From an uncultured Lachnospiraceae bacterium (GTDB lineage: Bacteria; Bacillota; Clostridia; Lachnospirales; Lachnospiraceae), in NCBI GenBank assembly GCA_946491665.1, contig CAMLYL010000001.1, positions 1 to 64,000 of the forward strand: a stretch of DNA of 64,000 bases, in the 5' to 3' direction. Position 1 is the stretch's first letter, and every line of letters starts with the position of its first letter. Below are positions 13,382 to 48,495 of the stretch, one piece after another. The notes beneath the pieces are model-generated. The model saw only the letters and a program-made list of their open reading frames with translations, ran no database searches and was not told the origin of the DNA. Position numbers and translations under genes: made by a program.

Positions 13382-15982
13382 TTAATAAATTTCGTAGATA
13401 CCGCCGTCCCATTTTTCTACTTCAATCTGAGCACTGTTGGGTGCCATACCGCATGCATACTTGGACATGTAACGATCCGGTGTAAGGATATTTACACAAC
13501 CGCCGCGGTCTGCGGAGTTACCCGGTTTTCCAAGAGGTGCGTACTCTGCACAGGACTCATAAGAATGAACCGTACCAGGCTGTACACGCTCACCAACCTG
13601 TGCGCAGAGGATTACGGAACCTCTGTCGTTGTAAGCACGAACCAGATCGCCGTCTTTGATTCCACGAGCCTCTGCATCAACGGTATTCATACGGATAATC
13701 CAGTAATACCATCCGTCTACCAGTACACGGTGATCCTTGATATCCATCATGAAGGAATCCTTTGCATCACCCATGGTATGCATGGAGAATCTGGGATGAG
13801 GAGAAAGCATACCCAGAGGGTATTTCTTTGCAACCTCAGCATGCCAGCTCTCCCAGGCCGGAACATACTTATGCATTGCAGGACGATACTCATCAACGAA
13901 GCCCTGCTCCTCAAAACGTTTCAGGGACGTGGAGATAAACTCAATCTTACCTGTGGTTGTCTGCAGACCCTTCAGACCTACTGTCTGGTTCGGAGCCGGA
14001 CCCCAGTCAGGTGTATCACGCTCACGATCCTCAGCGAACCAGCGAAGCGCAACTGTTTTCTTTCTGTTCGGATTATCCGGAACTACCAGGTAGCCCTTCT
14101 TGAAGAAGTCTTCCCAGCTCATCAGCTTCGGACAATCTGTTGCGTTATAATACTGTTCTACCCATTTCAGCTCATCCTTACCCTCAGTAAAGATATCGTA
14201 AATGCCAAGCTTCTCGGAAAGATAAGCATAAATCTCATAATCAGATTTAGACTCGCCAAGAGGCTCAATACATTTTGCCTGCAGGGAGATTACACGGTTG
14301 TTTGCCATCTGGAAGTTATCCGGAATATAACCGGAGCAGTTTGCAAACTCGGAGATATCCCATCTCTCGTAGTTGGTACATGCCGGAAGGATGATATCAG
14401 CAAACGGAACCTCGCCCTCCATCCAGATAGACTGGGAAATTACGCACTCCAGAGACTCTGTACGGTACATCTTTGCATATCTGTTGGTAGCAGTCATGGT
14501 ACCGATATGAGATCCGCCGTAATGCCAGTACATCTTAATGCTGCCGTAACCGGGAGCCGGATACTGATAGGGATGCATCTGAGTTTCAATTGTAGCTCCG
14601 CAGAATCCCTTGCCGTACCACTCGAACTTGCCGTTCATAATACACTCCGGAATCTTCAGACGGGGAATATGCTGACCTGCTTCCCAGTTCAGTTTTACAG
14701 GAGCCGGGAATGTAGTCTTGCCGTCGAACATTCTCCATGCAAACTTGAAGCCTGCTGCGGAGTTCGCTGTATCACCGGAGATACCGCCCTCTGCATAACC
14801 AGGGAAGTAGAACTCGTAGTCAGTGGGAACACCCTGAGTAGTTGACCAGATATTGGAACCGGGTTTACCCATTCCCTGCATGGTTGCAAGAGCGATCATA
14901 CCACGTGTCCACTCAATACCATGAGTTGCACGGCAGGCGCCGCCCCAGCCGCCCATACCGCCGGCTGCAAGGTATGTATTCTTCTTTGCCCACTCACGAG
15001 CCAGTGCACGAATCTCACATGCGGGAACGCCGGATTCTTTCTCTGCCCACTCACAGGTCTTCGGAATACCGTCCTCGCCGTTGCCAAGCACGTACTCTGC
15101 CCACTCTTCAAATCCATAAGCATGAGTCTTTACATATTCTTTATCGTAAGTTCCCTCTGTCAGCCATGTATATGCGATAGCGAAAGAAATCGCATGGTCT
15201 GTACCAACCTTGGGTGAGAACCATTTAATTCCCCACATATTTGCGGAATGGTTGAAGAAGGGATCGATGAATACCATCTTTACTCCCAGCTCATCCAGCC
15301 AGCGACGTCTGATATGGGACTCGTATGCAGCATAGATACCGCTGTTTACTTCCGGGTCAGAGGACCAGAATACGATCATCTCTGCATATTTCAGACCATC
15401 CTCTAACAGGTCATACTGCTCCGGACAGCCAAGTCTCCAGGAGAATCCCCACATATGCATACCGCCCCAGTGCCATCCTTCCCAGGAATCCGGGTTGTGA
15501 TCTGCATAAGTGAATCCCATCAGGTTCATAAAACGGAAGTATGTAGAATGACGATATCCTACATTACCCCATAAGTGGTGAGATGAAGGTGTGGACATGA
15601 TAGATGCCGGACCGCTCTCTCTCTTAATTCTGTTTACTTCGCTGACAACAAGATCTCTTGCCTCTTCCCAGCTGATTCTCTCATAGCCTGAAGTTCCCCG
15701 GTTCTGAACATTTCTCTCACCATTGGGATCCCAGTCTACACGTTTCATCGGGTAGAGGATACGACGATCAGAATAAATCATAGACTTCTGACCGGCAGTA
15801 AACGGTGCAATAGTCGTATATCTCGGTGCCTTGAATTCTCTGCCTCTAGCCTTAATTGTCCAGCCTTCCGGATCTGTCTCATCAAAATCCATCGGTGTAA
15901 TACGAACAATTTTGCCATCCTTTACATACACAAACACAGGACCGCCGGTGCTGGAATTAGTCAAACGAATTTCGCCTTCCAT
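13382..15982 (-). CDS. athL: Pyrogallol-phloroglucinol transhydroxylase, molybdopterin subunit
   Basis: The 866-residue protein belongs to the DMSO reductase family and matches the Pelobacter transhydroxylase throughout as I recall it. It has no N-terminal Cys cluster, as in that enzyme. The active-site stretch HNPDSWEG gives D165-S166-W167; S166 corresponds to Mo ligand Ser175 and H135 (STPSSHH) to His144, a constant offset of nine. ATG 15982 follows AGGAGG and opens the conserved MEGEIRLTNSS; the track start adds 19 unsupported residues. The cytoplasmic enzyme converts pyrogallol, the product of the UbiD enzyme at 30.7 kb, to phloroglucinol. Its promoter carries the MerR-type operator at 16150. 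Confidence 0.95.
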   Translation of the reverse strand: MEGEIRLTNSSTGGPVFVYVKDGKIVRITPMDFDETDPEGWTIKARGREFKAPRYTTIAPFTAGQKSMIYSDRRILYPMKRVDWDPNGERNVQNRGTSGYERISWEEARDLVVSEVNRIKRESGPASIMSTPSSHHLWGNVGYRHSTYFRFMNLMGFTYADHNPDSWEGWHWGGMHMWGFSWRLGCPEQYDLLEDGLKYAEMIVFWSSDPEVNSGIYAAYESHIRRRWLDELGVKMVFIDPFFNHSANMWGIKWFSPKVGTDHAISFAIAYTWLTEGTYDKEYVKTHAYGFEEWAEYVLGNGEDGIPKTCEWAEKESGVPACEIRALAREWAKKNTYLAAGGMGGWGGACRATHGIEWTRGMIALATMQGMGKPGSNIWSTTQGVPTDYEFYFPGYAEGGISGDTANSAAGFKFAWRMFDGKTTFPAPVKLNWEAGQHIPRLKIPECIMNGKFEWYGKGFCGATIETQMHPYQYPAPGYGSIKMYWHYGGSHIGTMTATNRYAKMYRTESLECVISQSIWMEGEVPFADIILPACTNYERWDISEFANCSGYIPDNFQMANNRVISLQAKCIEPLGESKSDYEIYAYLSEKLGIYDIFTEGKDELKWVEQYYNATDCPKLMSWEDFFKKGYLVVPDNPNRKKTVALRWFAEDRERDTPDWGPAPNQTVGLKGLQTTTGKIEFISTSLKRFEEQGFVDEYRPAMHKYVPAWESWHAEVAKKYPLGMLSPHPRFSMHTMGDAKDSFMMDIKDHRVLVDGWYYWIIRMNTVDAEARGIKDGDLVRAYNDRGSVILCAQVGERVQPGTVHSYESCAEYAPLGKPGNSADRGGCVNILTPDRYMSKYACGMAPNSAQIEVEKWDGGIYEIY

Positions 15983-16027
15983 GTGATAAACCTCCTTAAT
16001 TAATAAATTGTAATCAACTTTTCGCTC

Positions 16028-16095
16028 CATGGTTTTCATACGGGATGCGGTCGTGAGTAGAGGATGGTTGCTCCCACACCCATATGAAAACCATG
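16028..16095 (-). promoter_or_regulatory. Long stem-loop in the transhydroxylase leader
   Basis: Two 17-nt arms (16028-16044 and 16079-16095, one mismatch) can pair to form a stem around a 34-nt loop in the athL mRNA leader, between the predicted start of transcription near 16133 and the start codon. No terminator U-tract follows. It may be an mRNA stabiliser, a protein-binding site or part of an unrecognised riboswitch. It did not match what I remember of the Moco riboswitch. Confidence 0.55.
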
Positions 16096-24548: not shown

Positions 24549-25340
24549 TCAGTCAAACATATCCTTCGCCTGAGAGTAGTTAAATACCGGTCCCTCCAGG
24601 CACACATATGTATCATTGATTCTGCAGTGGCCGCACTTTCCGACGCCGCAGCACATTTTCCGCTCAAAGGATACCCAGATCTTATCCTCTGTGGCTCCGT
24701 TTTTCAGACATTCCATCGCCGCAAAATGCATCATTACCGGCGGCCCCACGATAACAATATTATAATCGTCAAAATCCCGGATGGGCACTTTTCCGATATG
24801 AGCGGTAACCATTCCGGTCTCAAAACCTTCCCGCTCCTCATTGTCCAGCGTCGTAATTACATGAAACCGCTGAGCAAACTTCTTCGCCTCATCGCGGAAC
24901 AGCACCGCGTCGTAATTCTTAAAACCGGAAATGAGATACAGGGATCTGCATACCTCCGGATGATCATAGAAATGATTGATCATCGTCATAACCGGCGCCA
25001 TACCGGTACCGCCGCAGATAATCAGAAGATCCTTGTTCTCAAACTGCTTCACCGGGAATGAATTGCCGTAGGGTCCCCGCAGGAATATAGAGTTTCCCGG
25101 CTCCAGATCGAAAATCGCCTGGGTCAGCAGTCCCACATTCCGGATCGTGAATTCCACATATCCGGGCCCTTTTCCACTGGCAGAAATCGGCGCTTCACCG
25201 ACTTTGGGCAGAGACAGCATGAAAAACTGTCCATATGCCGGATCATTTTCACAGGCCACGCGGAAGGTACATTCGGTGGCTGTATGCTTTAACATACTTA
25301 AAATCCTGTGTGGTTTGGGAACTAATACATTATTTTCCAT
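24549..25340 (-). CDS. AsrB-like FAD/NAD(P)-binding electron-transfer subunit
   Basis: The 263-residue protein has a ferredoxin-reductase fold: FAD domain with RGPYGNSFPV, NAD domain with ICGGTGMAPVMTM and IVGPPVMM, and a C-terminal [2Fe-2S]-type Cys cluster (CCGVGKCGHCRIN then C). It resembles anaerobic sulfite reductase subunit B and the gamma subunit of cytoplasmic hydrogenases. It should take electrons from NAD(P)H and pass them to the AsrA-like protein encoded 9 nt upstream. No sulfite reductase catalytic subunit (AsrC) is present, so the acceptor is most likely the molybdoenzyme of the same operon. ATG 25340 follows GGAGGAAG. Confidence 0.88.
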   Translation of the reverse strand: MENNVLVPKPHRILSMLKHTATECTFRVACENDPAYGQFFMLSLPKVGEAPISASGKGPGYVEFTIRNVGLLTQAIFDLEPGNSIFLRGPYGNSFPVKQFENKDLLIICGGTGMAPVMTMINHFYDHPEVCRSLYLISGFKNYDAVLFRDEAKKFAQRFHVITTLDNEEREGFETGMVTAHIGKVPIRDFDDYNIVIVGPPVMMHFAAMECLKNGATEDKIWVSFERKMCCGVGKCGHCRINDTYVCLEGPVFNYSQAKDMFD

Positions 25341-25349
25341 AGCTTCCTC

Positions 25350-27086
25350 CTATTCTTCTGCCGCTGCAGACGCATTTTTCAGCTTCTGCGCCTCTTCCGT
25401 CAGCCGGTTAATGGTGTCGGCAAAGGAAATGTCCTCCGGGCAGCGCTGCATACATCTTCCGCAGCCCACGCACATATGCTCGTTTCCGCCAAACCGTTTA
25501 TTATAATCATATACCTTGTGCAGTGTTTTATAGCGCATCATCTGTCTCGGGAACTTCCGCGCAATATTTCCTCCTGCCGTTTTTGAAAAGTCCGGAATCA
25601 TACAGGAAGACCAGAGACGACGGCGCTCTCCCTTTCTGCTGTTCTCCTGATTCAGGAAATCCACGGTCTCAAAACAGCTGCAGGTGGGGCAGACGGTATT
25701 GCATCCTCCGCAGGAGATGCACTTATCATCATAATCCTTCCACATATCCAGATCAGCGATCTGGCGGAGCATGGCGCTGTCCGTAATTTCCGGAACCGTA
25801 ACCTTTCTTTCATTTTCCATAATAAACTGCGGCTCATACTCACAGGTCTTCGCCCAGTCGAAATATTCCGCGAACTCCGCATCTTTGATTTTCAGCAGAA
25901 TCTCATTGCCGCTCAGTCTGCAGGCTACACTGTAATAATCCGCTTTATTTGTTTTCATGGATACGCAGAAACAATTATCCCAGCTCTGCTCACACTCCAT
26001 CATAAAAATCTTCACCCGGCTCCGGTTCCGGCTGTAATAAGTATCCGCCACACCTCCGTTTGCCAGGAACATATTATCCAGACGCTTCAGACCGTTGACA
26101 TCACAGGGACGCGCAAAAATAATGATTCCTTTCGGATCTGAGGATACACTCTCCCGGCAGGTATCTTCATCAAATTTGAAGATGGGCTGAGATACCGGAA
26201 AAATGACCTCCTTGGGAGAGAAGTCTGACTGTCGGTCTGTAACAATCTCCTCCAGCGAACTGATCTCCTGATAACGGATCAGACCATCTGTCTCCCACCG
26301 TCCACGGTCCGGCCGGTGAACCGGCGCATAAATGCGATACTCATTCTTCAGCTTCCGCAGGGTTCGGTTCATCAGTTCTCTGCTGATCCGGCAGCTTCTG
26401 GAATAGGCAGTCCCGGACTTTCTGTCCACAATCATCCGGTCCAGAATAAAACTGTCAAGCTGCAGGAATCCCGTAGTCAGCTGACCTACCATACGATAAA
26501 ATTCCGTATCCGCACATTCCTTGATTTTCAGACAGAACTCCGGCGCCCAGTTTAACAGATGTGTGTTCAGAAACGCCTTCTGCTCCTCCAGTCCGGTCAG
26601 AGTTTCTGTATACTCGCTGGTCTCATCACAGAGATAAGCCATATACTCCATCTCCATGGAGATATGATCCTCCAGCCAGTCTCCAGCTTCATCATTCCGC
26701 TCTATGCCTTTCGCCTCGTAGATCTCACAGACCTGGCTCCAGGCATCCTGCATCATAATGTGCTTCGGACTGGTATAAACTGACTCATAAGGGAAAGCAG
26801 CGTCCCCCTGAGCAACGCCTGCGCCCAGGAAGGTCTTTGCATAATCCGCCGCCAGATCCTCCAGACTCTCTCCTGCATCATACTCGAAATATTCATTGAG
26901 ACGGATCAGAGCATCCTGGAATTCTGTCAGCGCATTTTCTTCCCGGTCCGCCGGGAATTCAATATGTTTTAACTGCTCAAAAAACTCTTCATCAATTTCC
27001 GACGCGAAAAATCTGGCAAAAAACTGATAGAGATCGCGTCTGTTTTTCATCAGTCTCTGAAAGTCTGTTTTATTAGATATGCTCAT
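25350..27086 (-). CDS. Fusion of TorD-like chaperone domain and AsrA-like ferredoxin subunit
   Basis: The 578-residue protein has two parts. Residues about 1-205 are all-helical and resemble the TorD/DmsD molybdoenzyme chaperone family (YQFFARFFAS, DYAKTFLGAG, FPYESVYTSPKHIMMQDAW). From about 210 onward it is AsrA-like, with PVSQPIFKF, RPCDVNGLKRLD and two C-terminal ferredoxin motifs, CISCGGCNTVCPTC and CVGCGRCMQRCP. ATG 27086 follows GGGGAGG and overlaps the end of the Fe-S subunit gene; the track start adds 11 residues. The fusion joins assembly of the molybdoenzyme and its electron supply in one polypeptide. I do not know this combination as a described family. Confidence 0.82.
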   Translation of the reverse strand: MSISNKTDFQRLMKNRRDLYQFFARFFASEIDEEFFEQLKHIEFPADREENALTEFQDALIRLNEYFEYDAGESLEDLAADYAKTFLGAGVAQGDAAFPYESVYTSPKHIMMQDAWSQVCEIYEAKGIERNDEAGDWLEDHISMEMEYMAYLCDETSEYTETLTGLEEQKAFLNTHLLNWAPEFCLKIKECADTEFYRMVGQLTTGFLQLDSFILDRMIVDRKSGTAYSRSCRISRELMNRTLRKLKNEYRIYAPVHRPDRGRWETDGLIRYQEISSLEEIVTDRQSDFSPKEVIFPVSQPIFKFDEDTCRESVSSDPKGIIIFARPCDVNGLKRLDNMFLANGGVADTYYSRNRSRVKIFMMECEQSWDNCFCVSMKTNKADYYSVACRLSGNEILLKIKDAEFAEYFDWAKTCEYEPQFIMENERKVTVPEITDSAMLRQIADLDMWKDYDDKCISCGGCNTVCPTCSCFETVDFLNQENSRKGERRRLWSSCMIPDFSKTAGGNIARKFPRQMMRYKTLHKVYDYNKRFGGNEHMCVGCGRCMQRCPEDISFADTINRLTEEAQKLKNASAAAEE

Positions 27087-27708
27087 AGTATCTGCCTCCC
27101 CGTCCAAAAGAAACCTCATCCAGTTCCGGCGGAAGAATATCCTGCCACTGGGCGTTTTTCAGTATATACCGGGTAGAAGGACCGTTTCCGAAATCTCTCA
27201 GACGGTATACATTTTCCTCTCCCGCTTCCCGAAGCAGTCTGGAAACCTCGCTGCCCGGATCGTTGATATCTCCATAATGAAGCGCTTTTCCGGAACAGTT
27301 TTTCACGCAGGCCGGATCCTCGCCCTCCTCACGGAGCTGAGCGCAGATGGTGCATTTGTCCATGGCCCGCTGCGTCTCGCTGAATGTGTTGGCATGGTAG
27401 GGACATTCTTTATTGCAGCTGTGGCAGCCGATACATTTCTTCGTCTCAATACGGACCACACCGTCTTCTTTGCTTTTATATACGGCTCCGGAAGGGCAGA
27501 CCCGTACGCAGACCGGATTCTCACACTGCTGACACATCGTAGGAAGAAAATACATCTGCAGATCCGGATAGGTTCCGAAAGGTCCAACCGCACGTACTTT
27601 CGTCCGGTCAGATCCCAGAGTCGTTCCGTTTTCCATTTTGCAGGCCACCTGACATCCCTTGCATCCGATGCAGCGGTCCAGCTCTATTACAAATGCGTAC
27701 TGTTTCAT
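27073..27708 (-). CDS. Four-cluster ferredoxin subunit (DmsB/PsrB-like)
   Basis: The 211-residue protein has four Cys groups for [4Fe-4S] clusters: CIGCKGCQVAC, CQQCENPVCVRVC, CIGCHSCNKEC and CTICAQL with CVKNC. It has no membrane segment or signal peptide. It should relay electrons between the AsrA-like fusion protein and the molybdenum subunit. ATG 27708 overlaps the stop of the upstream molybdoenzyme gene (ATGA) and has GAGGAGGTGG upstream; the track start at 27750 is too early. Unlike AthS it has no Cna-like tail. Confidence 0.9.
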   Translation of the reverse strand: MKQYAFVIELDRCIGCKGCQVACKMENGTTLGSDRTKVRAVGPFGTYPDLQMYFLPTMCQQCENPVCVRVCPSGAVYKSKEDGVVRIETKKCIGCHSCNKECPYHANTFSETQRAMDKCTICAQLREEGEDPACVKNCSGKALHYGDINDPGSEVSRLLREAGEENVYRLRDFGNGPSTRYILKNAQWQDILPPELDEVSFGRGGRYYEHI

Positions 27709-30383
27709 AATGCCACCTCCTCTGTAGGATCGCTGGGCTGTGCCAGCCACTGAGTGAAATCATGGGGATTCTGCCAGATTCCTTCCGGCGCCTCCTCTGC
27801 CGGATATACTTTCACCAGGAACGCCCGCAGAGTATAAGTTCCAACCACATCATTAAAAGGAGCATCCGCTTTGGTCAGTACATTCACATTTGTCTCCATC
27901 CAGCCGTGGGTCTTTGTTCCAAGAGTTTCCGGATTCCAGAACCGCTCCATATAAACCACGCCCGGCTTGATTCCCTGCGTCACAGAGACAACCGCCCGGA
28001 TTCTTCCGCGCTTTGACTCCACCCAGGCCCAGCTTCCATCTTCAAGACCATATTTTTCCGCATCATCCGGGAACATCCACAGCTCCGGCACCGGATAAAT
28101 CTCGCGCAGCCAGGGCACATTCCTCAGAGTATTATGATGGAAGAACGGAACACGTCCATTTGTCATAACCAGCGGATATTCTTTCGCCAGCCCTTCCGTA
28201 TCTCTGGGGCTTTCCGCCGGCTCCAGATAATAGGGCAGCGGCTCATAATCTTTCGATGCGGGAGGGAGCTCACATTTTGCAAAAGGCTGTCCGGTACGTC
28301 CCAGAGTAATCATACTCTCCAGATAAATCTCACATTTTTTCGAAGGTGTCGCAAATCCCTGGGGCAGATTCGTCTTCGGGTCTTTCTTCTTATATACATA
28401 GTACTCCTTCCACTCTTCCTTCGGCATATAAGTGTAAGGCGTAATTTCCTTCAGAGTCTCAAAGTCCAGCCCTACACGGGACAGGAAATGATCCCACAGA
28501 TCCGTCACCTTATCCCAGTAGGGGAGATCCTTGCCCATGTACTCCGCGTCAAAAGCTTTGGCACAATCCTCGTCGCCCAGCTCGCCGCAGCGCTTCGCGA
28601 TCTTCGCCCAGATCAGAGTTTCATCCATGGTCTCCCACAGATGGGTCACCTGCTGTCTGGCGCAGAGCGTGTTACATGTCTCCACAATCATGTCAGTTTC
28701 CAGCCATTCCTCCGTGGGAAGCAGGATATCCGCATAAGCTGAAAAAGAAGTGGGATACATATACATATGTACGATAAAATCCAGCTCGTCAATCACCCGC
28801 TTTACCTTCTGGCTGTCAGCCACCGCCGCCATCTTATTTCCGGAACGGTCAATCCATACTCTGGGCTTATAAGGCTTCCCGGTCAGAACCGCATCCATAA
28901 TACTGGTGATATGGCCGGCATACCAGATATGCAGACCCTTGTGTTCAATACCTCCCAGCCGTTTCTTCAGCTGCTCATCCGGAAGCTTATCTGCAGCAAT
29001 GGGAACCGGATAGTTCGGCATATCAAACACCCCGCTGGTCTTAAACCGCTGAAGAAGCGCGCCGGGACGCTCCACATTTCCCATCAGCAGATCCAGTGTG
29101 GCGGTACTCATGGCTGCCTGAACTGAGTTCGGCGTCTGGTCCGTGCTGACGCCGATGGCAATACCGCTGGGCGTCTGCTCCGCATACAGACGGATTGCTT
29201 TCTCAATCTGTTTCGGATCCAGCTCACAGATCTCAGCCGCATACTCCAGTGTATACTGCTCTGCCTGTTCCCACAGAAGCTGGAAACCTGTTTTGTAGGT
29301 CTTTCCTTCATATATATATGTACCCTGCAGAGCCGGCTGGAGCTGATCATCCCAGGGATACTCCATGGGCTTCGGCTGACCGGTCAGTTCATCCCATACC
29401 ACAAAGGTATCCGGAATATCCGGATCTTCGCTGATCTGATCCCGCCAGAACATCTTTGTCTCCGCGTCAACCAGATACGGCAGATTCGTCCATTTCATCA
29501 CAAACTCTTCATCGTAGAGTTTTTCTTCCATAATAAAGCGGATCCATGCAAGCATCAGCGCCACATCCGTACCCGGACGAATCGGAAGCCAGACATCCGC
29601 CTTCGCAGCATCCGGAGTCATACGGGGATCAATCACTACCGTTTTCACACCGTTTGCACGCAGATCCACCACTGCTCCGCCGCCGCTGGCCGGACAGGAG
29701 TAGGAAGGATCTGTTCCCCACAAAACAAGAGTTTTTATGGGAGTATCTTCCGTATCATAAATCTCGAGAGAATTGGAATCTGCAATACTGGGATCTACGC
29801 CGCCGTACATCATGGTATAAGCCAGCACACGGGGCAGATAGCACTGAGCGCAACCGGGCTCAAACCAGTTGGGCGTGCCGAAAATATTACAGAAACGGGC
29901 GATACTCCAGATCTCCGGATTCCCGCCTCCTCCGGTAGAACAGAACACAGTCTCCGCACCATACTTCTGTTTTGTCTCTACTAATTTATGTGCAATGATA
30001 TCAATCGCCTTTTCCCAGGAAATCCGGCGCCACTTATTGGCTCCCCGTTTTCCCACCCGCATCATTGGATACTTGTTCCGATTGGGATGGTACAGAGCCT
30101 GAATGCCGGAAAGTCCCTTTGCGCACATCCTGCCTTTGCTCATACGGTCCTCCGGATTGCCTTCCAGCTTGATCACCCGGCCGTTTTTCACGGTAGCGAT
30201 CACACCGCAGTTGGCAATGCAGGCCCGGCAGCAGGTCTTTACCCGGCGGATCTCATCTTCCGTTGTCTTATTCTCCTGTTTCGCTTTCCGGAACATTCGG
30301 GTATTTCCGGTGGCAAAACGCAGCCCCCTTACACTGGTGGCCGCCAGGAAGTCCATACTGGAAATTTCTATTTTCTCTCCCAT
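27705..30383 (-). CDS. Molybdopterin oxidoreductase, catechol-dehydroxylase-like catalytic subunit
   Basis: The 892-residue DMSO-reductase-family protein has an N-terminal [4Fe-4S] motif (CRACIANC, then C in GRMCAKG about 27 residues later), the Mo-proximal segment NWFEPGCAQCYLPR with a Cys as likely metal ligand, and a C-terminal MGD-binding domain. The general look resembles gut catechol dehydroxylases, but the substrate is unknown. The N-terminus SSMDFLAATSVRGL resembles a Tat signal (SRRDFLxATxxxGL) whose twin arginines are lost, so it should stay in the cytoplasm. ATG 30383 follows GGAGGG. With the FeS, TorD-AsrA and AsrB-like partners it would reduce its substrate using NAD(P)H. Confidence 0.85.
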   Translation of the reverse strand: MGEKIEISSMDFLAATSVRGLRFATGNTRMFRKAKQENKTTEDEIRRVKTCCRACIANCGVIATVKNGRVIKLEGNPEDRMSKGRMCAKGLSGIQALYHPNRNKYPMMRVGKRGANKWRRISWEKAIDIIAHKLVETKQKYGAETVFCSTGGGGNPEIWSIARFCNIFGTPNWFEPGCAQCYLPRVLAYTMMYGGVDPSIADSNSLEIYDTEDTPIKTLVLWGTDPSYSCPASGGGAVVDLRANGVKTVVIDPRMTPDAAKADVWLPIRPGTDVALMLAWIRFIMEEKLYDEEFVMKWTNLPYLVDAETKMFWRDQISEDPDIPDTFVVWDELTGQPKPMEYPWDDQLQPALQGTYIYEGKTYKTGFQLLWEQAEQYTLEYAAEICELDPKQIEKAIRLYAEQTPSGIAIGVSTDQTPNSVQAAMSTATLDLLMGNVERPGALLQRFKTSGVFDMPNYPVPIAADKLPDEQLKKRLGGIEHKGLHIWYAGHITSIMDAVLTGKPYKPRVWIDRSGNKMAAVADSQKVKRVIDELDFIVHMYMYPTSFSAYADILLPTEEWLETDMIVETCNTLCARQQVTHLWETMDETLIWAKIAKRCGELGDEDCAKAFDAEYMGKDLPYWDKVTDLWDHFLSRVGLDFETLKEITPYTYMPKEEWKEYYVYKKKDPKTNLPQGFATPSKKCEIYLESMITLGRTGQPFAKCELPPASKDYEPLPYYLEPAESPRDTEGLAKEYPLVMTNGRVPFFHHNTLRNVPWLREIYPVPELWMFPDDAEKYGLEDGSWAWVESKRGRIRAVVSVTQGIKPGVVYMERFWNPETLGTKTHGWMETNVNVLTKADAPFNDVVGTYTLRAFLVKVYPAEEAPEGIWQNPHDFTQWLAQPSDPTEEVAL

Positions 30384-30409
30384 ATTATCCCTCCACAGCC
30401 TTTGTTTCA

Positions 30410-30662: not shown

Positions 30663-30698
30663 CTAAAGCTATAAATTTTTATGAAGGAGGGAAAGGAT

Positions 30699-32168
30699 AT
30701 GAACAAAGTAGAAGATTTACGTTCTGCCATTGAATTGATCAAATCGATTCCGGGCGAGTATGTCGAGACCGATGTGGAAGTTGATCCGAAAGCGGAACTT
30801 TCCGGTGTATACCGCTACGTAGGAGCTGGCGGAACAGTAATGAGACCTACAAAAATCGGACCTGCCATGGTGTTCAACAATATTAAGGGACATCCCGGCG
30901 CAAGGGTAATCACCGGTATACTGGCAAGCAGAAAGAGGGTTGCTGCTCTGCTGGATACTACTCCGGAAAAGCTGGGCTTTTTCCTGCGTGACGCGGTACA
31001 GAACCCGATTGATCCGATTGACTTCACAGGAGATAAGGTTCCCTGTCAGGAAGTCGTACATCTGGCAACGGAGGAGGGCTTCGACATCCGCAAGCTGGTG
31101 CCGGCTCCCACCAACACTCCGGAAGATGCCGGCCCGTACATTACTATGGGTCTGGCTTACGGCAGCGATCCCGAGACAGGCATCTCAGACGTTACCATTC
31201 ACAGATTCTGTCTCCAGAGCGAGAATGAGCTTTCCATGTGGATTACTCCCGGCGCAAGACATCTGGGTGTTTTCTATGAAAAATATGAGAAGCTTAACAA
31301 ACCCATGCCGATTTCCATCAGCATCGGATTGGATCCGGCTGTTTATCTGGCATCCGGCTTTGAGCCGCCCACAACACCGCTTGGATACAACGAGCTGGCC
31401 TGCGCGGGGGCAATCCGCCAGAAACCGGTAGAGCTCTGCAACTGTATTACTATCGGCGAAAAGGCTATTGCCAATGCAGAATATGTAATTGAAGGTGAGC
31501 TTATGCCTCACGAGCGTGTACCGGAGGATCGCTCCACCGGAACAGGAAAGGCTATGCCGGAATTCCCCGGACAGACCGGTCCCGCTCCCATGGTTCCCAT
31601 TATTAAGGTAAAAGCTGTGACACACAGAATGAACCCGATTATGCAGACTACCATCGGACCTTCCGAGGAGCACGTACATATGGCCGGACTTCCCACAGAG
31701 GCAAGTATTATCAACATGGTTGAGACTGCTATGCCGGGACGTCTGATGAATGTATACGCACATCCTTCAGGAGGCGGAAAATACATGGCTATCATTCAGT
31801 TCAAGAAGAGCATGCCCAGTGATGAGGGACGTCAGCGTCAGGCTGCGCTGCTTGCTTTCTCCGCATTCAGCGAGTTAAAGCATGTAATTCTGGTGGATGA
31901 AGATGTTGATCCGTTTGACAGCAACGATGTTTTATGGGCATTAAACACCCGTTATCAGGGAGATATTGATACTGTCATGATCCCCGGCGTGAGATGCCAT
32001 CCGCTGGATCACACACAGGAAACTGCTTACAATCCCATGATCCGCGACAATGGTATTTCCTGCAAGACGATCTTCGACTGTACGATGCCCTTCTCTCAGA
32101 AGAAGCATTTTGAGAGATCACAGTTCCTGGAGGTTGATCCCAAGCATTGGCTTCCGGATATGTTCTAA
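30699..32168 (+). CDS. lpdC: UbiD-family decarboxylase, probable gallate decarboxylase
   Basis: The 489-residue protein is a UbiD-type, prenylated-FMN-dependent non-oxidative decarboxylase, with the family segment AEYVIEGELMPHERVPED and the GARHLGVFY region. In length and surroundings (ubiX, lpdD) it matches the LpdC group that decarboxylates gallate and protocatechuate. The product from gallate is pyrogallol, the substrate of the transhydroxylase at 13-16 kb, which shares its operator. ATG 30699 follows AAGGAGGG; the track start (30681) lies inside that site. Other hydroxybenzoates cannot be excluded. Confidence 0.88.
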   Translation: MNKVEDLRSAIELIKSIPGEYVETDVEVDPKAELSGVYRYVGAGGTVMRPTKIGPAMVFNNIKGHPGARVITGILASRKRVAALLDTTPEKLGFFLRDAVQNPIDPIDFTGDKVPCQEVVHLATEEGFDIRKLVPAPTNTPEDAGPYITMGLAYGSDPETGISDVTIHRFCLQSENELSMWITPGARHLGVFYEKYEKLNKPMPISISIGLDPAVYLASGFEPPTTPLGYNELACAGAIRQKPVELCNCITIGEKAIANAEYVIEGELMPHERVPEDRSTGTGKAMPEFPGQTGPAPMVPIIKVKAVTHRMNPIMQTTIGPSEEHVHMAGLPTEASIINMVETAMPGRLMNVYAHPSGGGKYMAIIQFKKSMPSDEGRQRQAALLAFSAFSELKHVILVDEDVDPFDSNDVLWALNTRYQGDIDTVMIPGVRCHPLDHTQETAYNPMIRDNGISCKTIFDCTMPFSQKKHFERSQFLEVDPKHWLPDMF

Positions 32169-32211
32169 AAACAAATATGCTTTATAAAGAAAGATAAAAG
32201 AGGAAGATGAG

Positions 32212-33651
32212 ATGAAAGTTTTCAAAAAAGAATACATCCATTATCTGATCGCCCTGATTATCGGTATTGTCATCGCAGTTGCGCTGAAACCGGGTAACGG
32301 GCTGACAGATATCGGTGTTCGTGTAGTTGCCATTATGATTCCGTGTCTGTATCTGTGGCTGACAACAAACACGCACTGGACCAGTTTGCTGGCATTAGGA
32401 CTCCTGGTTATGACACAGGCTATGACGGCCAACGAAGTATGGGCGAACTCCCTTGGACACTTCGTAGTAATTACCGTTCTCTGCTACATGATTCTGAACG
32501 TGTGTCTGAAAGAGACCGGTGTAATCGATAAAATAGCCATATGGTTTGTAACCCGTAAATTCGTACAGGGCAAGCCCTATGCATTTATGGCAATGTTCTT
32601 CGCATCCAACGTAATCATCGGTATGTTCGTAGATAACCTGTCTCTGGCAATTATCTACATCGGACTTACTGAAGTTCTGTGTAAGCAGCTCGGACTGAAG
32701 AAGGGCGATTCTTTCTACACCTGTATGTTCACCGGCGTTATGTTCGGCAACGTACTGCTGTCCATCTGTTCTCCGATCGCGCATGCACTGCCGAACATCA
32801 TCATGGCATCCTGTGAGTCTGTATTCGGTATTACCATTACATACGCACAGTGGCTGGCAGTCGGTGTTCCTTATGCAGCAGTTATGTATGTTGTAATTAT
32901 GCTGATTGTTCTGATCTGGCGTCCTGACACCTCTGCATTCAAGAACTACGATGTAGAGAAAGTAAAAGCAGAGCAGGAGCCTCTGAGCAGAGAAGGTAAG
33001 ATTTCCGCCGCTACATTTATCGTTGTTGTGTTCTTCGTACTGGCGCCTTCACTGCTGAGCAATGTATCCGCATTCTTCTCTTACATGAACAGCATCGGTG
33101 TTGTTATCCCGGCTATTCTGGGTATCGTGTTCCTGGCTCTGATCCGTTCCAACGGCAAAGCAGTCCTGAATGTTCCGGCAGCTATGAAACAGGTTCCGTG
33201 GCCGCCCCTGCTCTTCGCAGGTACCGTGTCCTGCTTCGCAGTGCCGCTGTCTGCAGAGTCCACCGGTATTAATGTATGGCTTGGCAACGTTCTGCAGCCC
33301 GTCATTGGTGATCTTCCGCAGTTCGGAATCATCGCGGTTCTGTTCCTGCTGGCCATCATCATGACAAACTTCCTGTCCAACACAGTTACCATGGTACTGT
33401 TCTTCAATATTGGTGCCGTACTGCTGTCCATTGATCAGGTAAATATGGCTGCATTTACAATCATGGTTTCTATCGCATCCGGTATGGCTGCTGTAACGCC
33501 GTCCGCAGCGGTTCCTTCACCGCTGTTCTTCGGTCCTGGCCATGTAACGATGAAGACTACAGTAAAATATACAACTATATTCGTTGTAATTTCCTTCTTC
33601 ATCTGCCTGCTGTTCATGCCGATTGCAACCAAAATGCTTGGCGGAGTATAA
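32212..33651 (+). CDS. SLC13/DASS-type transporter, probable aromatic acid importer
   Basis: The 479-residue protein has about 12 hydrophobic segments, two related halves and paired re-entrant-like motifs (MFVDNLSLAIIY; MTNFLSNTVTMVLF), as in ion-coupled SLC13/ArsB-like carriers. It starts 43 nt after the decarboxylase gene in the same transcript, so gallate or the decarboxylase substrate is the most likely cargo. An antiport with the decarboxylation product is also conceivable. ATG 32212 follows AGAGGAAG. Confidence 0.82.
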   Translation: MKVFKKEYIHYLIALIIGIVIAVALKPGNGLTDIGVRVVAIMIPCLYLWLTTNTHWTSLLALGLLVMTQAMTANEVWANSLGHFVVITVLCYMILNVCLKETGVIDKIAIWFVTRKFVQGKPYAFMAMFFASNVIIGMFVDNLSLAIIYIGLTEVLCKQLGLKKGDSFYTCMFTGVMFGNVLLSICSPIAHALPNIIMASCESVFGITITYAQWLAVGVPYAAVMYVVIMLIVLIWRPDTSAFKNYDVEKVKAEQEPLSREGKISAATFIVVVFFVLAPSLLSNVSAFFSYMNSIGVVIPAILGIVFLALIRSNGKAVLNVPAAMKQVPWPPLLFAGTVSCFAVPLSAESTGINVWLGNVLQPVIGDLPQFGIIAVLFLLAIIMTNFLSNTVTMVLFFNIGAVLLSIDQVNMAAFTIMVSIASGMAAVTPSAAVPSPLFFGPGHVTMKTTVKYTTIFVVISFFICLLFMPIATKMLGGV

Positions 33652-33726
33652 GACAGATTGTTTCAGGGATTTTTTCAACTCCCCACAATATAGTTCCGAA
33701 AGCCCCAGCGGTTTTCGGAACACCAT

Positions 33727-33761
33727 AAAAGGAGCCTGCCCACAGGGGCAAGCTCCTTTTT
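33727..33761. terminator. Terminator after the transporter gene
   Basis: AAAAGGAGC/GCTCCTTTT with an inner TGCCC/GGGCA stem is followed by T. It lies between the convergent transporter and ubiX genes and can serve both. Confidence 0.8.
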
Positions 33762-33812
33762 CATAACCATTTTTACAATACAGATCAGAACATCTTTTCA
33801 TGCTCTGCGCTT

Positions 33813-34370
33813 TCAGGACCATCTGCGGAATTTTTTTGACTCGATTCCATAAATATCAAGCACCTTCGCTGCAATATGCTCCACCATCTGCTGAATATTC
33901 TCCGGCCGATTATAAAAGGTCAGCATGGGAGGAAGAATAATCGCTCCCATCTGGGACAGTTCCATCATATTCCGCAGGTGAATCGTGTGAAGGGGCGTCT
34001 CCCTTGCCACAAGCACCAGTTTTCTACGCTCCTTCAGCGTCACATCCGCCGCCCGCAGCAGCAGATTATCCGAATACCCGCTGTGAATTCCCGCCACAGT
34101 CTTCATACTGCAGGGAACCACCACCATTCCCTCCGTCTTAAACGTTCCGCTGGCAATAGACGCTCCGATATCATGAAGATCATAGACATGATCCGCCATA
34201 TCCAGAATCTGTTTCGAAGTATACTCTGATTCCAGCTCAATCGTACGCCTTGCTCCATCGGTAACTACAAGGCAGCTTTCCCAGTCCGGGCATTCTTTCA
34301 GTGTCTGCAGAATCTCCACCGCAATCGGTACACCGCTTGCTCCGCTCATTCCAATTACTAATCGTTTCAT
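33813..34370 (-). CDS. ubiX: Flavin prenyltransferase UbiX/Pad1
   Basis: The 185-residue protein opens with MKRLVIGMSGASG, the FMN-binding signature of UbiX, and has VVPCSMKTVAGIHSGYSDNLLLRAADV and the RETPLHTIHLRNM segment. It makes prenylated FMN for the UbiD enzyme nearby. ATG 34370 follows AAAGGAGAG. Its promoter holds the best copy of the MerR-type operator. It corresponds to the LpdB subunit in gallate/tannin loci of lactobacilli. Confidence 0.95.
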   Translation of the reverse strand: MKRLVIGMSGASGVPIAVEILQTLKECPDWESCLVVTDGARRTIELESEYTSKQILDMADHVYDLHDIGASIASGTFKTEGMVVVPCSMKTVAGIHSGYSDNLLLRAADVTLKERRKLVLVARETPLHTIHLRNMMELSQMGAIILPPMLTFYNRPENIQQMVEHIAAKVLDIYGIESKKFRRWS

Positions 34371-41091: not shown

Positions 41092-42399
41092 CTATACAGC
41101 ATTCGTCCATCCGGACATTTCCACAACTCTGTCAAGTGTTTTTTCACTCCCCGATGATCGTACCACCTGGCCAGTCGCCATATAGTCGCCATCATGAATC
41201 ATATTTTTCTTTCTGAATTCATATGGATCCATTCCACATTTTTCCGCCGCCATATCCATCAATACTTCCATAGCAAATGTAGGCTGTGCCATACCAAAAC
41301 CTCTAAACGCAACTCCCGGGTTTCGATTCGTAGCTACAACGTAACAATCGGCTGACTGATACGGAATATTATAAGGTCCGCATCCCCAATATGTGATTTT
41401 CATAGTAATCAACATGGCAACACCTCTATATGCACCCGCGGCCGTATAACTGGTTCTGTCCAGTGCAATCAATGTGCCATCTTTCTTGAATCCAAGCTTA
41501 TATCTGAAATAAACACCGTGATTTGTTCCTGCATATTCGAACATTTCCGCTGTATCAAGAGCCCAGCGTACCGGACGCCCTATTTTTCTGGCAAGTGTCG
41601 CCGTAGCCGCCTCATTTGTCATATAATTTTTTACGCCAAAACCACCCCCCATAGCAGGACAGATTATTCGCACCCTTGACTGCGGCATGCCCAATACTCC
41701 TGCAATGGGACCTGAATTTCCATGCGGGCACTGCTGCGCAGCATATATGGTAATACTATCTGTTCCTTCAGGAATTGCCAGTGTAACAAAATTTTCGATA
41801 GGTGACGCACGTCGCGGACAGGTTGCAAACTCTTTTTCAATAATATAATCACACTGCGCAAATCCTTCTTCCATATTTCCCTTGCGCAGTTTCTGACAGT
41901 TGCCTCCTGTAGCTGGTACAACATGAATATTACCGCGATAATAGTCCGGTTCATCCTCGTGTAAAATCGGAGCGTCCGGTTTTACAGCTTCTCGGGGATC
42001 AAATACTGCCGGTAAAACTTCATACTCCACCTTTACCAATTTTGCTGCTCGACATGCCGTTTCATACGTATCTGCAGCAACCAAGGCAATTAATTCGCCT
42101 TTGTAGCGTACCTTTTTTTCTGCAAATACAGGATGATCCAGACATGGAGGAATGCCAACACGATTAAATACCGTATCCTCTGCAGTCGCAATCCCACGGA
42201 CTCCTGGCACTGACATAGCTTCCGTTGTATCAACAGAAAGAAGCTTTGCATGATCATGAATACTGAAGACACCTTTCGCATAAAGCATGCCCGTCACTTT
42301 CATATCTCCCGTATATCGAACCTGTCCCGTAAGTTGCTGGTCTGCATCTATACGCGGTCTGGATTTTCCTATGACACAATATTCCTGCTTTTCATACAT
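41092..42399 (-). CDS. Molybdenum hydroxylase, large Mo subunit half (NdhL-like)
   Basis: The 435-residue protein covers the N-terminal part of a xanthine-dehydrogenase-type Mo subunit: domain a/b (LTGQVRYTGDMKVTGMLYAK), then GGGFGVKN and AFRGFGMAQPTFAME. It ends at VVEMSGWTNAV, where normal proteins continue into the second Mo domain. That second half is encoded separately at 42.9-44.0 kb. This split into ~50 and ~37 kDa subunits is known from nicotinate dehydrogenase of Eubacterium barkeri. ATG 42399 is 3 nt after the Fe-S subunit stop. Confidence 0.87.
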   Translation of the reverse strand: MYEKQEYCVIGKSRPRIDADQQLTGQVRYTGDMKVTGMLYAKGVFSIHDHAKLLSVDTTEAMSVPGVRGIATAEDTVFNRVGIPPCLDHPVFAEKKVRYKGELIALVAADTYETACRAAKLVKVEYEVLPAVFDPREAVKPDAPILHEDEPDYYRGNIHVVPATGGNCQKLRKGNMEEGFAQCDYIIEKEFATCPRRASPIENFVTLAIPEGTDSITIYAAQQCPHGNSGPIAGVLGMPQSRVRIICPAMGGGFGVKNYMTNEAATATLARKIGRPVRWALDTAEMFEYAGTNHGVYFRYKLGFKKDGTLIALDRTSYTAAGAYRGVAMLITMKITYWGCGPYNIPYQSADCYVVATNRNPGVAFRGFGMAQPTFAMEVLMDMAAEKCGMDPYEFRKKNMIHDGDYMATGQVVRSSGSEKTLDRVVEMSGWTNAV

Positions 42400-42402
42400 A
42401 AT

Positions 42403-42927
42403 TTACCCCTTTCTCAGCATTTCTGCCGCCTGAACAATCGCCTCTTCCCGTGTAACAGACTGCATCTTTTTCGCAGCCTTTAAAACACCGTCAATTGGTT
42501 TTACATATCCAGTGCAACGACATATATTCCCCGATAAAGCTTCTCTTACTTCTTCTCTCGTTGGATCTGGATTTTCATCCAGAAGTGCTTTAGCTGACAT
42601 AATAAACCCAGGTGTACAAAATCCACACTGAAAGGCACCAATTTCTTTGAATGCTTTCTGAAGCGGATGCAGATTTTCCGGTGTCCCCAGAGACTCCACA
42701 GTTTCAACCGTTTTCCCGTCAATGGTCACTGCCATCACAAGACAGGCATTCATTGCTTTACCATTTATAATGACTGTACAGGCACCGCATTCTCCCATTA
42801 CACAGGAACTTTTTAAGCTGGTTATGTTTAATTTTTCTCTTAGAAGAGTTAACAAAGATTCTCCCACTGAAGCAGTTGTACTTACCTGTTCTCCATTTAA
42901 TATAAACTGAACTTTCACATCAGACAT
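42403..42927 (-). CDS. Molybdenum hydroxylase, [2Fe-2S] subunit (NdhS-like)
   Basis: The 174-residue protein has the plant-type [2Fe-2S] motif CVMGECGACTVIINGKAMNAC and the second cluster motif CGFCTPGF with CRCTGY. It is the electron-relay subunit of a xanthine-dehydrogenase-type enzyme. Its ATG overlaps the previous gene by 8 nt. Confidence 0.94.
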   Translation of the reverse strand: MSDVKVQFILNGEQVSTTASVGESLLTLLREKLNITSLKSSCVMGECGACTVIINGKAMNACLVMAVTIDGKTVETVESLGTPENLHPLQKAFKEIGAFQCGFCTPGFIMSAKALLDENPDPTREEVREALSGNICRCTGYVKPIDGVLKAAKKMQSVTREEAIVQAAEMLRKG

Positions 42928-43957
42928 TTTCTCCCCCCTGCCTTTCTTTTTCTTTAATCAGCCTCAATACTTTTTCGGGTGTTGCAGGAAGATCTACAAC
43001 CCAGATTCCTACTGCGTCATGAATTGCATTAATAATCGCAGGAGCTCCTGAGTTTGCACAAATCTCTCCGGCAGCCTTAGCTCCATATGGTCCCTCCGGT
43101 TCAATATTATCAACAAAATCTGCGACAATTTCCGGTGCATCAATCGCAGTCGGAACCGGATAATTTGACATATCATTTGGCTTGAATCTCGTAGAAAAAT
43201 CCTTACTGACTCCATCAACACTTGTCATATAAGGATATACATCTTCTCCAAGTGCCCATCCATATGCCTGCAGCGCACCACCTTCGTTTTGTCCGATCAC
43301 TGCAGATGGATTCAATGCTTTCCCACAGTCGACCGCCGCATACATTTTCTTTACATCTACCACTCCGGTCTCTGTATCGACTTCAACTTCTGCCACCGTT
43401 GAATGATAATAATAAGTATCTGCAGGAATTCCCTGTCCATTCTCATCTACCGGAACATTAAACGGATAAAATTCCCCTATTCCGATTGGAAGCTTACGAA
43501 GACCAAACTGTGCAATGCCTGCGCAGGCAGCCAGAGGCAGTCGTTTGTTCGGATCATATTTATCAACAGCGAATCCATCAGCAATATACAGTCTGTCAGG
43601 TTTTGTTTTTAATTGAAAGGCTGCAGCCTCAAACAAAACATCTCTTACCATTTCACACGCCTTTAAAACAGCTCTTCCACCCGTAAATGTTACTCGTGAA
43701 CTTAATGTTCCAAAATCATAAGGCGTAGCAGATGAATCTCCTGAAACGATACTTACACGCTCTACAGGTATTGTAAAAAATTCAGCCACCATCATACACA
43801 AAATCGTATCAGATCCCTGTCCAATTTCCGTTGCTCCTGTCTGAATATTTACGCTTCCATCTTCACGCATCTGTACATGGGCAGAACACGGATTCGGAGC
43901 ATTCATAACTGTCAGTGAATACATACAACTGGCTATCCCCCGTCCATATTTTTTCAT
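42920..43957 (-). CDS. Molybdenum hydroxylase, second Mo subunit half (NdhM-like)
   Basis: The 345-residue protein corresponds to the C-terminal half of a xanthine-dehydrogenase Mo subunit. It starts with GRGIASCMYSL, has GATEIGQGSDT and ends with the catalytic-Glu region AKAAGEICANSGAPA. In this operon it comes before the N-terminal half, so the gene order is swapped relative to the protein order. Joined, the two parts give about 780 residues, the normal size. ATG 43957 follows GGAGG three nucleotides after the FAD subunit gene. Confidence 0.88.
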   Translation of the reverse strand: MKKYGRGIASCMYSLTVMNAPNPCSAHVQMREDGSVNIQTGATEIGQGSDTILCMMVAEFFTIPVERVSIVSGDSSATPYDFGTLSSRVTFTGGRAVLKACEMVRDVLFEAAAFQLKTKPDRLYIADGFAVDKYDPNKRLPLAACAGIAQFGLRKLPIGIGEFYPFNVPVDENGQGIPADTYYYHSTVAEVEVDTETGVVDVKKMYAAVDCGKALNPSAVIGQNEGGALQAYGWALGEDVYPYMTSVDGVSKDFSTRFKPNDMSNYPVPTAIDAPEIVADFVDNIEPEGPYGAKAAGEICANSGAPAIINAIHDAVGIWVVDLPATPEKVLRLIKEKERQGGENV

Positions 43958-43960
43958 TCC

Positions 43961-44839
43961 CTATACCTCCCTCTCTGCAGCCCGAATAGCGTCACATACA
44001 GCTCTAACTGCAAGTACCTGCACAATCTCTTTTCGATACCACTCTGTTGCTCTCATATCCGTAATCGGTTCAACATCATTCAATGTCATTCCAGCATATC
44101 CTTTTACCACCGTTTCCGTTGCATCGCATCCTTCTAATGCATGTTCAAATGTCCGAAGCCTTTTTATTGTAGGTGCACACGCCCCTGCTGCCACTCTAAC
44201 AGACTCAATCTTTTTTTGATCCTCAGAAAGTTTTACACTGGCGGCAATATTAACAATAGAAATGGTCATAGCTTTTCTTTTTCCCATTTTCTGAAAACTG
44301 CTGTTTTCCTTGTTTTGTTTTTTCTTAACAATAAACCTTCGAATAAACTCTGTATCCTTCAAACATGTTTTCTTAACAAAAATTCCAATGTCTTCAACTT
44401 TCATCATTCTTACGCCATCCGCACCAACAATCTCTGCCTCCGCATTCAGAGCAATCAGAGCCGCCGCCATATCAGCTGAAGGAGATGCTGTCCCGACATT
44501 CCCTCCCAGGGTTGCACGATTACGCACCTGCGGACTGGCTGATTCCTGCGCTGCCATTGCCAGTGCCCGCGCATATTCCTTTACAACTGATGACTTTGCA
44601 ATTTCTGCCGCAGTTACCAGACTGCCAATCTGAATACTATCTCCTGTAATACGGATCCCCTGCAACTGAGGTATATCCTCGATGCCCACAAATACAGTCT
44701 CTTCCGGATAATTATACTGATTTACCTGAACCATAAGATCCGTACCGCCAGCAAGAATAACTGCATGTCCGATATTTTCTTTCAAATACTGAATCGCCTG
44801 TTCTTCAGTTTCCGCATGATAAAAAGTTCCCTTGCCCAT
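43961..44839 (-). CDS. Molybdenum hydroxylase, FAD subunit (NdhF-like)
   Basis: The 292-residue protein has the CO-dehydrogenase/xanthine-dehydrogenase FAD fold: VILAGGTDLMVQ, RNRATLGGNVGTASPSAD, and a C-terminal CODH-FAD domain. ATG 44839 follows GAGGAGG; the track start at 44878 is not supported. It would pass electrons from the Mo center to NAD(P)+ or another acceptor. Upstream is the LysR remnant. Confidence 0.9.
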   Translation of the reverse strand: MGKGTFYHAETEEQAIQYLKENIGHAVILAGGTDLMVQVNQYNYPEETVFVGIEDIPQLQGIRITGDSIQIGSLVTAAEIAKSSVVKEYARALAMAAQESASPQVRNRATLGGNVGTASPSADMAAALIALNAEAEIVGADGVRMMKVEDIGIFVKKTCLKDTEFIRRFIVKKKQNKENSSFQKMGKRKAMTISIVNIAASVKLSEDQKKIESVRVAAGACAPTIKRLRTFEHALEGCDATETVVKGYAGMTLNDVEPITDMRATEWYRKEIVQVLAVRAVCDAIRAAEREV

Positions 44840-44905
44840 ACATGTTCCTCCTCGTGCCGGGAAAAACTCTTCCCCCATATCGCATTTCTACTTAAATTCA
44901 TCCTT

Positions 44906-48361: not shown

Positions 48362-48495
48362 TATTTTCCCCCTTCTCAACTTCCTGATGTGTTTATCATT
48401 TATTCTTTCTCTTACATTTGTCAGATCCTTTCTTATTCATGCAGGAAATATTCTGATCAGTTTGCCACCAATGTCAGAGGATAGGTATTTCAATA

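Follow-up and report, generated by a model that had tools for sequence, protein, structure and literature searches.

Introduction

Does a molybdoenzyme that appears to work in the cytosol carry what is left of an export signal, and what has kept the remainder in place? The question is raised by the catalytic alpha subunit (892 residues; 27705..30383, minus strand) of a DMSO reductase-family enzyme, encoded in a 64,000-nucleotide stretch of DNA from an uncultured Lachnospiraceae bacterium; we refer to that whole stretch as the window. A preliminary description read its N-terminus as a vestigial Tat signal and took this to mean descent from an exported enzyme that now stays inside.

The standard example of a remnant Tat signal on a non-exported molybdoenzyme is NarG (Ize et al., 2009, as cited by PMC4464133, PMC3712460 and PMC10609526). 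NarG is cytosolic, and its chaperone NarJ binds what remains of the Tat peptide and proofreads the insertion of metal (PMC10609526). Binding by TorD/DmsD relies on the H and C regions of the Tat signal, and the arginine pair is not crucial (PMC3316669). Among gut catechol dehydroxylases, Dadh, Hcdh and Cadh of E. lenta have Tat signals, and Dodh of Gordonibacter and others are without them (PMC7028382, PMC12771579).

Results

The alpha subunit and its partners

The alpha subunit contains the Molybdop_Fe4S4, Molybdopterin and Molydop_binding domains (PF04879, PF00384 and PF01568). Its placement in the CISM/DMSO reductase family follows from the [4Fe-4S] cysteine motif, the molybdopterin and dinucleotide-binding domains, a DmsB-like partner and a TorD chaperone. 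The closest solved structures are acetylene hydratase (2e7z) and thiosulfate/polysulfide reductase (2vpw). Cys181 aligns with the conserved cysteine of both and is invariant in 29 homologues; we take that cysteine to bind the metal in 2vpw and 2e7z, and Cys181 is hence the likely molybdenum ligand of alpha. Assignment as a pyrogallol hydroxytransferase (AthL/BthL) was rejected, as 4v4c and PF21423 are absent from the matches of alpha. A ribosome-binding site (GGAGGG; 30389..30394, minus strand) precedes the ATG at 30383. An earlier start codon concealing a twin-arginine motif was also rejected: the in-frame upstream sequence has no RR.

Three more genes follow on the minus strand. The DmsB-like, ferredoxin-type beta subunit (27073..27708; PF13247 and DmsB/NrfC/TtrB-type models) starts MKQYAF and overlaps the alpha stop codon. 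It is followed by a single open reading frame (25350..27086) in which a TorD/NarJ-type chaperone domain (26532..26930, minus strand; PF02613, 4.4e-29) is fused to a ferredoxin-type AsrA electron-transfer domain (TIGR02910, 1.2e-116, residues 243-578 of the reading frame). The TorD half matches the TorA chaperone 1n1c (E 3e-9) and its Glu-Asp-His motif is invariant; the AsrA half matches sulfhydrogenase beta. The last gene encodes an AsrB-type flavin/NAD(P)H reductase subunit (24549..25340; TIGR02911, 5.7e-98; PF00175 and PF10418). Export signals are absent from AsrA, AsrB and beta. The AsrA and AsrB models match above cut-off, as for anaerobic sulfite reductase AsrAB and sulfhydrogenase beta-gamma. 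Unlike in AsrABC, the siroheme subunit AsrC is not seen among the scanned operon proteins, AsrA bears an N-terminal TorD domain, and the module accompanies a molybdoenzyme. Electrons would pass from NAD(P)H to AsrB (FAD, Fe-S), AsrA, beta (Fe-S clusters) and finally alpha ([4Fe-4S], Mo-bisPGD).

The surrounding window is an aromatic-catabolism region, with UbiD/UbiX (VdcC/VdcB-like; 30681-34370), a pyrogallol hydroxytransferase, a DAPG-hydrolase-family protein and several other molybdoenzymes. The hydroxytransferase large subunit lies at 13382-16039 (minus strand; 4v4c, E = 0; PF21423) and its likely small subunit at 12524-13348 (minus strand). Together with UbiD/UbiX, the hydroxytransferase suggests a predicted route from gallate through pyrogallol to phloroglucinol. 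UbiD leaves the substrate of alpha unfixed, because L017 is the one locus examined in which it adjoins the alpha gene. The preliminary description called alpha dehydroxylase-like, a label that we treat as putative. The DAPG-hydrolase-family protein (49670-50485, minus strand; PF18089, 1.2e-77) belongs to what we take to be the family of phloretin hydrolase and here occurs in a genome from the genus of Eubacterium ramulus. An acetylene-hydratase-like molybdoenzyme (46232-48379, minus strand; 2e7z, 1.6e-111), in which the N-terminal extension is absent, adjoins a xanthine-oxidase-family cluster (41092-44878) and an XdhC-like protein.

The N-terminus of alpha matches Tat signals in register

Residues 1-26 of alpha (MGEKIEISSMDFLAATSVRGLRFATG; 30306..30383, minus strand) form a putative remnant Tat signal peptide, supported by the register shared with the intact signals of homologues and by a profile without the arginines. 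They fall within the first 35 residues (30279-30383, minus strand), whose codons read MGEKIEISSMDFLAATSVRGLRFATGNTRMFRKAK from 30383. The segment S9-M10-D11-F12-L13 occupies the place of Tat R-R-x-F-L, with S9-M10 where the twin arginines would be. R19 and R22 sit within the former h-region, which carries three charges. Both departures from the Tat pattern named in the preliminary description, the replaced arginine pair and the arginine breaking the hydrophobic stretch, are thus present, and the N-terminus has neither the (S/T)RRxFLK motif nor the uncharged h-region of a functional signal.

The resemblance was measured with a profile of Sporomusaceae Tat signals from which both arginine columns were omitted, against a null of composition-preserving shuffles. 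The top match in the window's N-terminus falls at F12 (z = 5.6, p = 0.007). With the same profile, 23 of the 40 Tat-less relatives reach p <= 0.01, and z is mostly 4-8 in the window's own clade; two Tat-less copies (L024 and L103) barely show the motif. A profile from the Coriobacteriia signals alone is weak (5 of 40 rows at p <= 0.01), which is unsurprising because these are distant. The spacing from the phenylalanine to the first cluster cysteine is 38-43 residues in almost all Tat-less copies and 40-44 in most Tat-bearing ones. Profiles of the exported PhsA and DmsA, from near their own N-termini, align onto alpha residue 10 or 16.

Tat-less forms are nested among Tat-bearing ones

Scanning genome contigs turned up 43 close loci, which are 48-94% identical, along with one distant match. 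As the preliminary description had proposed to check, intact Tat signals do occur among homologues, in a matching register: three copies in Sporomusa acidovorans, one in a soil Bacillota genome and one in a Coriobacteriales bacterium (MKQLVLNRRQFLKATAVTGIATALGGS, MKGPVLNRRQFLKATAITGIAAALGS, MKKFVLTRRDFLKATAVTGIATALSGS, VTDFQLSRRTFLKVGAFAGAAG). The Tat-bearing homologues are 57-65% identical in Sporomusaceae and the soil Bacillota MAG, and about 48% in Coriobacteriia. Wider genome searches added more copies of the Sporomusaceae type and about 30 from Coriobacteriia, with RR in every copy that has a readable N-terminus, including L087, whose full N-terminus reads ISRRTLLKAT. A sparse sample of 300 genomes of the phylum of Sporomusa yielded nothing new. 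All copies from Lachnospiraceae, Oscillospiraceae, Clostridium and Lactobacillaceae are without an intact Tat signal; they mostly retain xDFLxATxVxGL or a worn YLxAIxIxGL, at an unchanged distance from the cluster cysteines. The RR of L016 (MSRRTSF) was rejected as a Tat signal because it is out of register.

In a tree of 79 subunits, the Tat-less forms are a single clade of 40, sister to Sporomusa; other Bacillota and then Coriobacteriia lie outside. When the N-terminus is left out (61 rows), the signal state changes once and the Tat-less side has an SH-aLRT of 99. The direction of this change, loss rather than gain, depends on a root outside the Tat-less clade, which is provisional as it is placed by outgroup and midpoint only. 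Loss is the direction we provisionally read from the sequences, because the Tat-bearing forms are paraphyletic and because the exported PhsA and DmsA models align at the alpha N-terminus. The nesting is what descent from an exported enzyme, as first proposed, predicts.

The provisional root, together with the Tat-less N-termini that score no better than shuffles, leaves some room for the extension being unrelated to Tat signals, or for a signal having been gained later from such an extension in Sporomusaceae and Coriobacteriia. We consider both very improbable. The register is fixed in nearly all members, with the profile scores given above, and Tat-bearing forms lie on either side of deep nodes. 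Moreover, the acetylene-hydratase-like paralogue in the window has its first cysteine at about residue 13, without such an extension. The alpha N-terminus almost certainly descends from a Tat signal.

Signal, redox partner and host changed together

The operons differ in the same way as the signals. Tat-bearing operons encode alpha, beta, a DmsC/NrfD membrane anchor (PF04976/PF03916), TorD and NapG/NapH-type proteins; Tat-less operons encode alpha, beta, TorD, AsrA and AsrB, with TorD often fused to AsrA. Cross-tabulation gives 29 Tat-less loci with AsrAB, 25 Tat-bearing loci with the anchor and no mixed case; L020 (at a contig end), L024 and L028, and L068-L071 are outside this table. In L024 and L028, which are Tat-less and contain TorD, no AsrA or AsrB was seen nearby. 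In L068-L071 the Tat signal is present and the DmsC anchor was not found in the operon. A lipobox follows the Tat signal in the Coriobacteriia copies L068, L069, L071 and L087 (VTGC, ATGC, AVGC and ITGC), and L068, L069 and L071, in which the anchor was not found, are probable Tat lipoproteins.

The partner state also changes once on the tree, on the same branch as the signal state. The two states changed once each, which makes the linkage between signal, partner and host a single joint event rather than a correlation across independent replicates. Under this root, the sequences indicate that the ancestor combined a Tat signal with a membrane anchor of the DmsC/NrfD kind and with NapG/NapH-type partners, and that the Tat-less form arose on one branch, with AsrA/AsrB, an NAD(P)H diaphorase, replacing the anchor in hosts mostly without TatC.

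TatC is absent from 40 of the 42 genomes of the Tat-less type. It was not found in the window's own genome (84% complete), in E. ramulus (99% complete; the window's genus), E. oxidoreducens, P. paucivorans, C. thailandense or the lactobacilli. TatC is present throughout the 36 genomes of the Tat-bearing type; in G841, one of these, the matched copy has an N-terminus that was not covered. In the family at large TatC exceeds the cut-off in 12 of 299 genomes, and Tat absence is thus normal in these hosts. The exceptions among the Tat-less type are Epulopiscium (L019) and G038 (L045; its N-terminus is off the contig). Epulopiscium (L019/L129) is the one clear case, with a complete TatC on a low-GC contig and an alpha without a Tat signal.

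These two genomes are what speaks for continued export, by low-stringency Tat recognition or by Sec. Such export is hardly credible for the window's enzyme: its own genome, E. ramulus and most genomes of this type are without TatC, RR is absent, three charges interrupt the h-region, and beta, AsrA and AsrB are free of export signals and would draw on NAD(P)H in the cytosol. The h-region has also lost its hydrophobicity across the Tat-less forms, with 3.3 charges per protein compared with 0.08 in Tat-bearing forms and a maximum 15-residue hydropathy of 0.78 compared with 1.56. Host, hydrophobicity and the exchange of anchor for AsrA/AsrB together support the earlier proposal that the enzyme now stays inside, and we regard alpha as very probably cytosolic.

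The peptide core is still under purifying selection

If export was lost and TorD was kept, the arginine pair and the continuous h-region are expected to disappear and the residues facing the chaperone to remain. The observed pattern agrees. In a set of 15 close relatives, residues 9-21 (SMDFLAATSVRGL; 30321..30359, minus strand) have a pN/pS of 0.24, compared with 0.52 for residues 1-8 and about 0.5-0.65 just downstream; the constraint on this core is weaker than that on the enzyme body (0.137) and stronger than that on its flanks. Column entropy of residues 11-21 (core DFLxATxVxGL) is below that of the flanks (p = 0.003). F/Y, L, A, V/I, G and L/I recur at constant spacing in lactobacilli, Clostridium and Lachnospiraceae. 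Counted from the phenylalanine, positions 0, +1, +3, +6, +8, +9 and +12 are hydrophobic or glycine in 81-97% of sequences, and +7 and +10 are now charged in 49% and 65%; because this register was chosen with such residues in mind, the alignment-based entropy test is cleaner than these percentages. An amphipathic helix behind the spacing is not claimed, because the helical moment is not significant (p about 0.3).

Residues 27-49 (30237..30305, minus strand), from the remnant peptide to the cluster cysteines, are a variable, charged linker (pN/pS about 0.46 for residues 27-46). In an AlphaFold2 model of alpha (29 sequences, mean pLDDT 67), residues 1-41 are unplaced with pLDDT below 50. The word 'vestigial' thus holds for the arginine pair and the eroded h-region and fails for the core. 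We interpret the core as a putative TorD-binding epitope; its purifying selection suggests that the chaperone-binding half of the signal has probably been retained.

The same peptide can be read as a functionless relic that is still eroding, with TorD using only a second site in the enzyme core. The twin arginines are lost, many charges have entered the h-region, the motif is almost gone in L103 and L024, and pN/pS over residues 1-26 (0.40) exceeds that of the enzyme body. TorD can moreover bind TorA and aid cofactor insertion without the signal peptide (PMC10609526). Against this stand the low pN/pS of residues 9-21, the entropy minimum at 11-21 relative to its flanks, and the spacing held from lactobacilli to Lachnospiraceae. 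We judge this reading unlikely, though one to be taken seriously.

We favor, with good confidence, a remnant Tat signal on a cytosolic enzyme that is kept for TorD binding during cofactor insertion. The AsrA-fused TorD would hold the former signal by its hydrophobic core (F12, L13, A15, T16, V18, G20, L21 and A24) until the Fe-S cluster and the molybdenum cofactor are inserted, as NarJ does for NarG. The twin arginines and the continuous h-region, which would be required only for TatC and the membrane, would have been lost. Consistent with this, TorD persists although Tat-less hosts need no export proofreading, and it is present in every Tat-less operon with enough downstream sequence. The contact between peptide and chaperone is undefined by the alpha model, in which the N-terminus is unplaced; by analogy with NarG, we lean toward retention of the peptide for TorD binding as such.

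The TorD-AsrA fusion

The fusion raises a further reading, in which the peptide permanently tethers AsrA/AsrB to alpha through the fused TorD, and a transient chaperone contact has become a structural contact for electron transfer. In its favor, the window and many relatives, lactobacilli among them, encode TorD and AsrA as a single polypeptide; the peptide also has a conserved core, and an N-terminus that is unplaced in the model is possibly free to bind. However, the E. ramulus group, C. thailandense and others have TorD and AsrA as two proteins, so the fusion is not required, and it arose or broke more than once. Such docking is doubtful on this evidence. Equally doubtful is the broader proposal that TorD-AsrA turned Tat proofreading into electron supply, with the relic signal recruiting the NAD(P)H reductase module to alpha only, or permanently. 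If docking is true, a dead export signal has become the handle for a redox partner.

Discussion

Like NarG, alpha is a molybdoenzyme that is not exported (in its case by prediction), with a Tat-like N-terminus lacking RR, a TorD/NarJ-family chaperone in its operon and Tat-bearing relatives. Alpha differs from NarG in that it is no nitrate reductase. NarGHI has retained both membrane anchor and quinol link and is found in Tat-containing bacteria, whereas the alpha operon has lost the anchor and lies in a host without TatC, its predicted electron supply runs through AsrA/AsrB, and its chaperone forms one protein with an electron-transfer subunit. The orthologues of Sporomusaceae and Coriobacteriia (L034, L040, L042, L047, L048 and others) share alpha (48-65% identical, with the active-site cysteine conserved), beta and TorD; they differ in having an intact Tat signal, a DmsC/NrfD anchor, NapG/NapH-type partners and TatC in the genome.

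With the gut catechol dehydroxylases, the enzyme shares the Mo-bisPGD family and the split between forms with Tat signal and membrane anchor and soluble forms without Tat (PMC7028382, PMC12771579). The accounts we drew on mention neither an AsrA/AsrB partner nor a remnant signal for the Gordonibacter enzymes, and we liken them by description, not by sequence. Remnant Tat signals on non-exported molybdoenzymes, and the Tat/membrane and Tat-less/soluble catechol dehydroxylases, are already known. Our literature searches returned no description of the alpha operon or of a TorD-AsrA fusion. What is new here is the nested clade that places Tat loss and the swap of anchor for AsrAB on one branch, the Tat-lacking hosts and the TorD-AsrA fusion.

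Living relatives flank this branch, and they allow a clean test of whether a chaperone needs the one half of a Tat signal or the other. The finding suggests a route by which an exported, membrane-anchored molybdoenzyme may become a soluble one in gut anaerobes.
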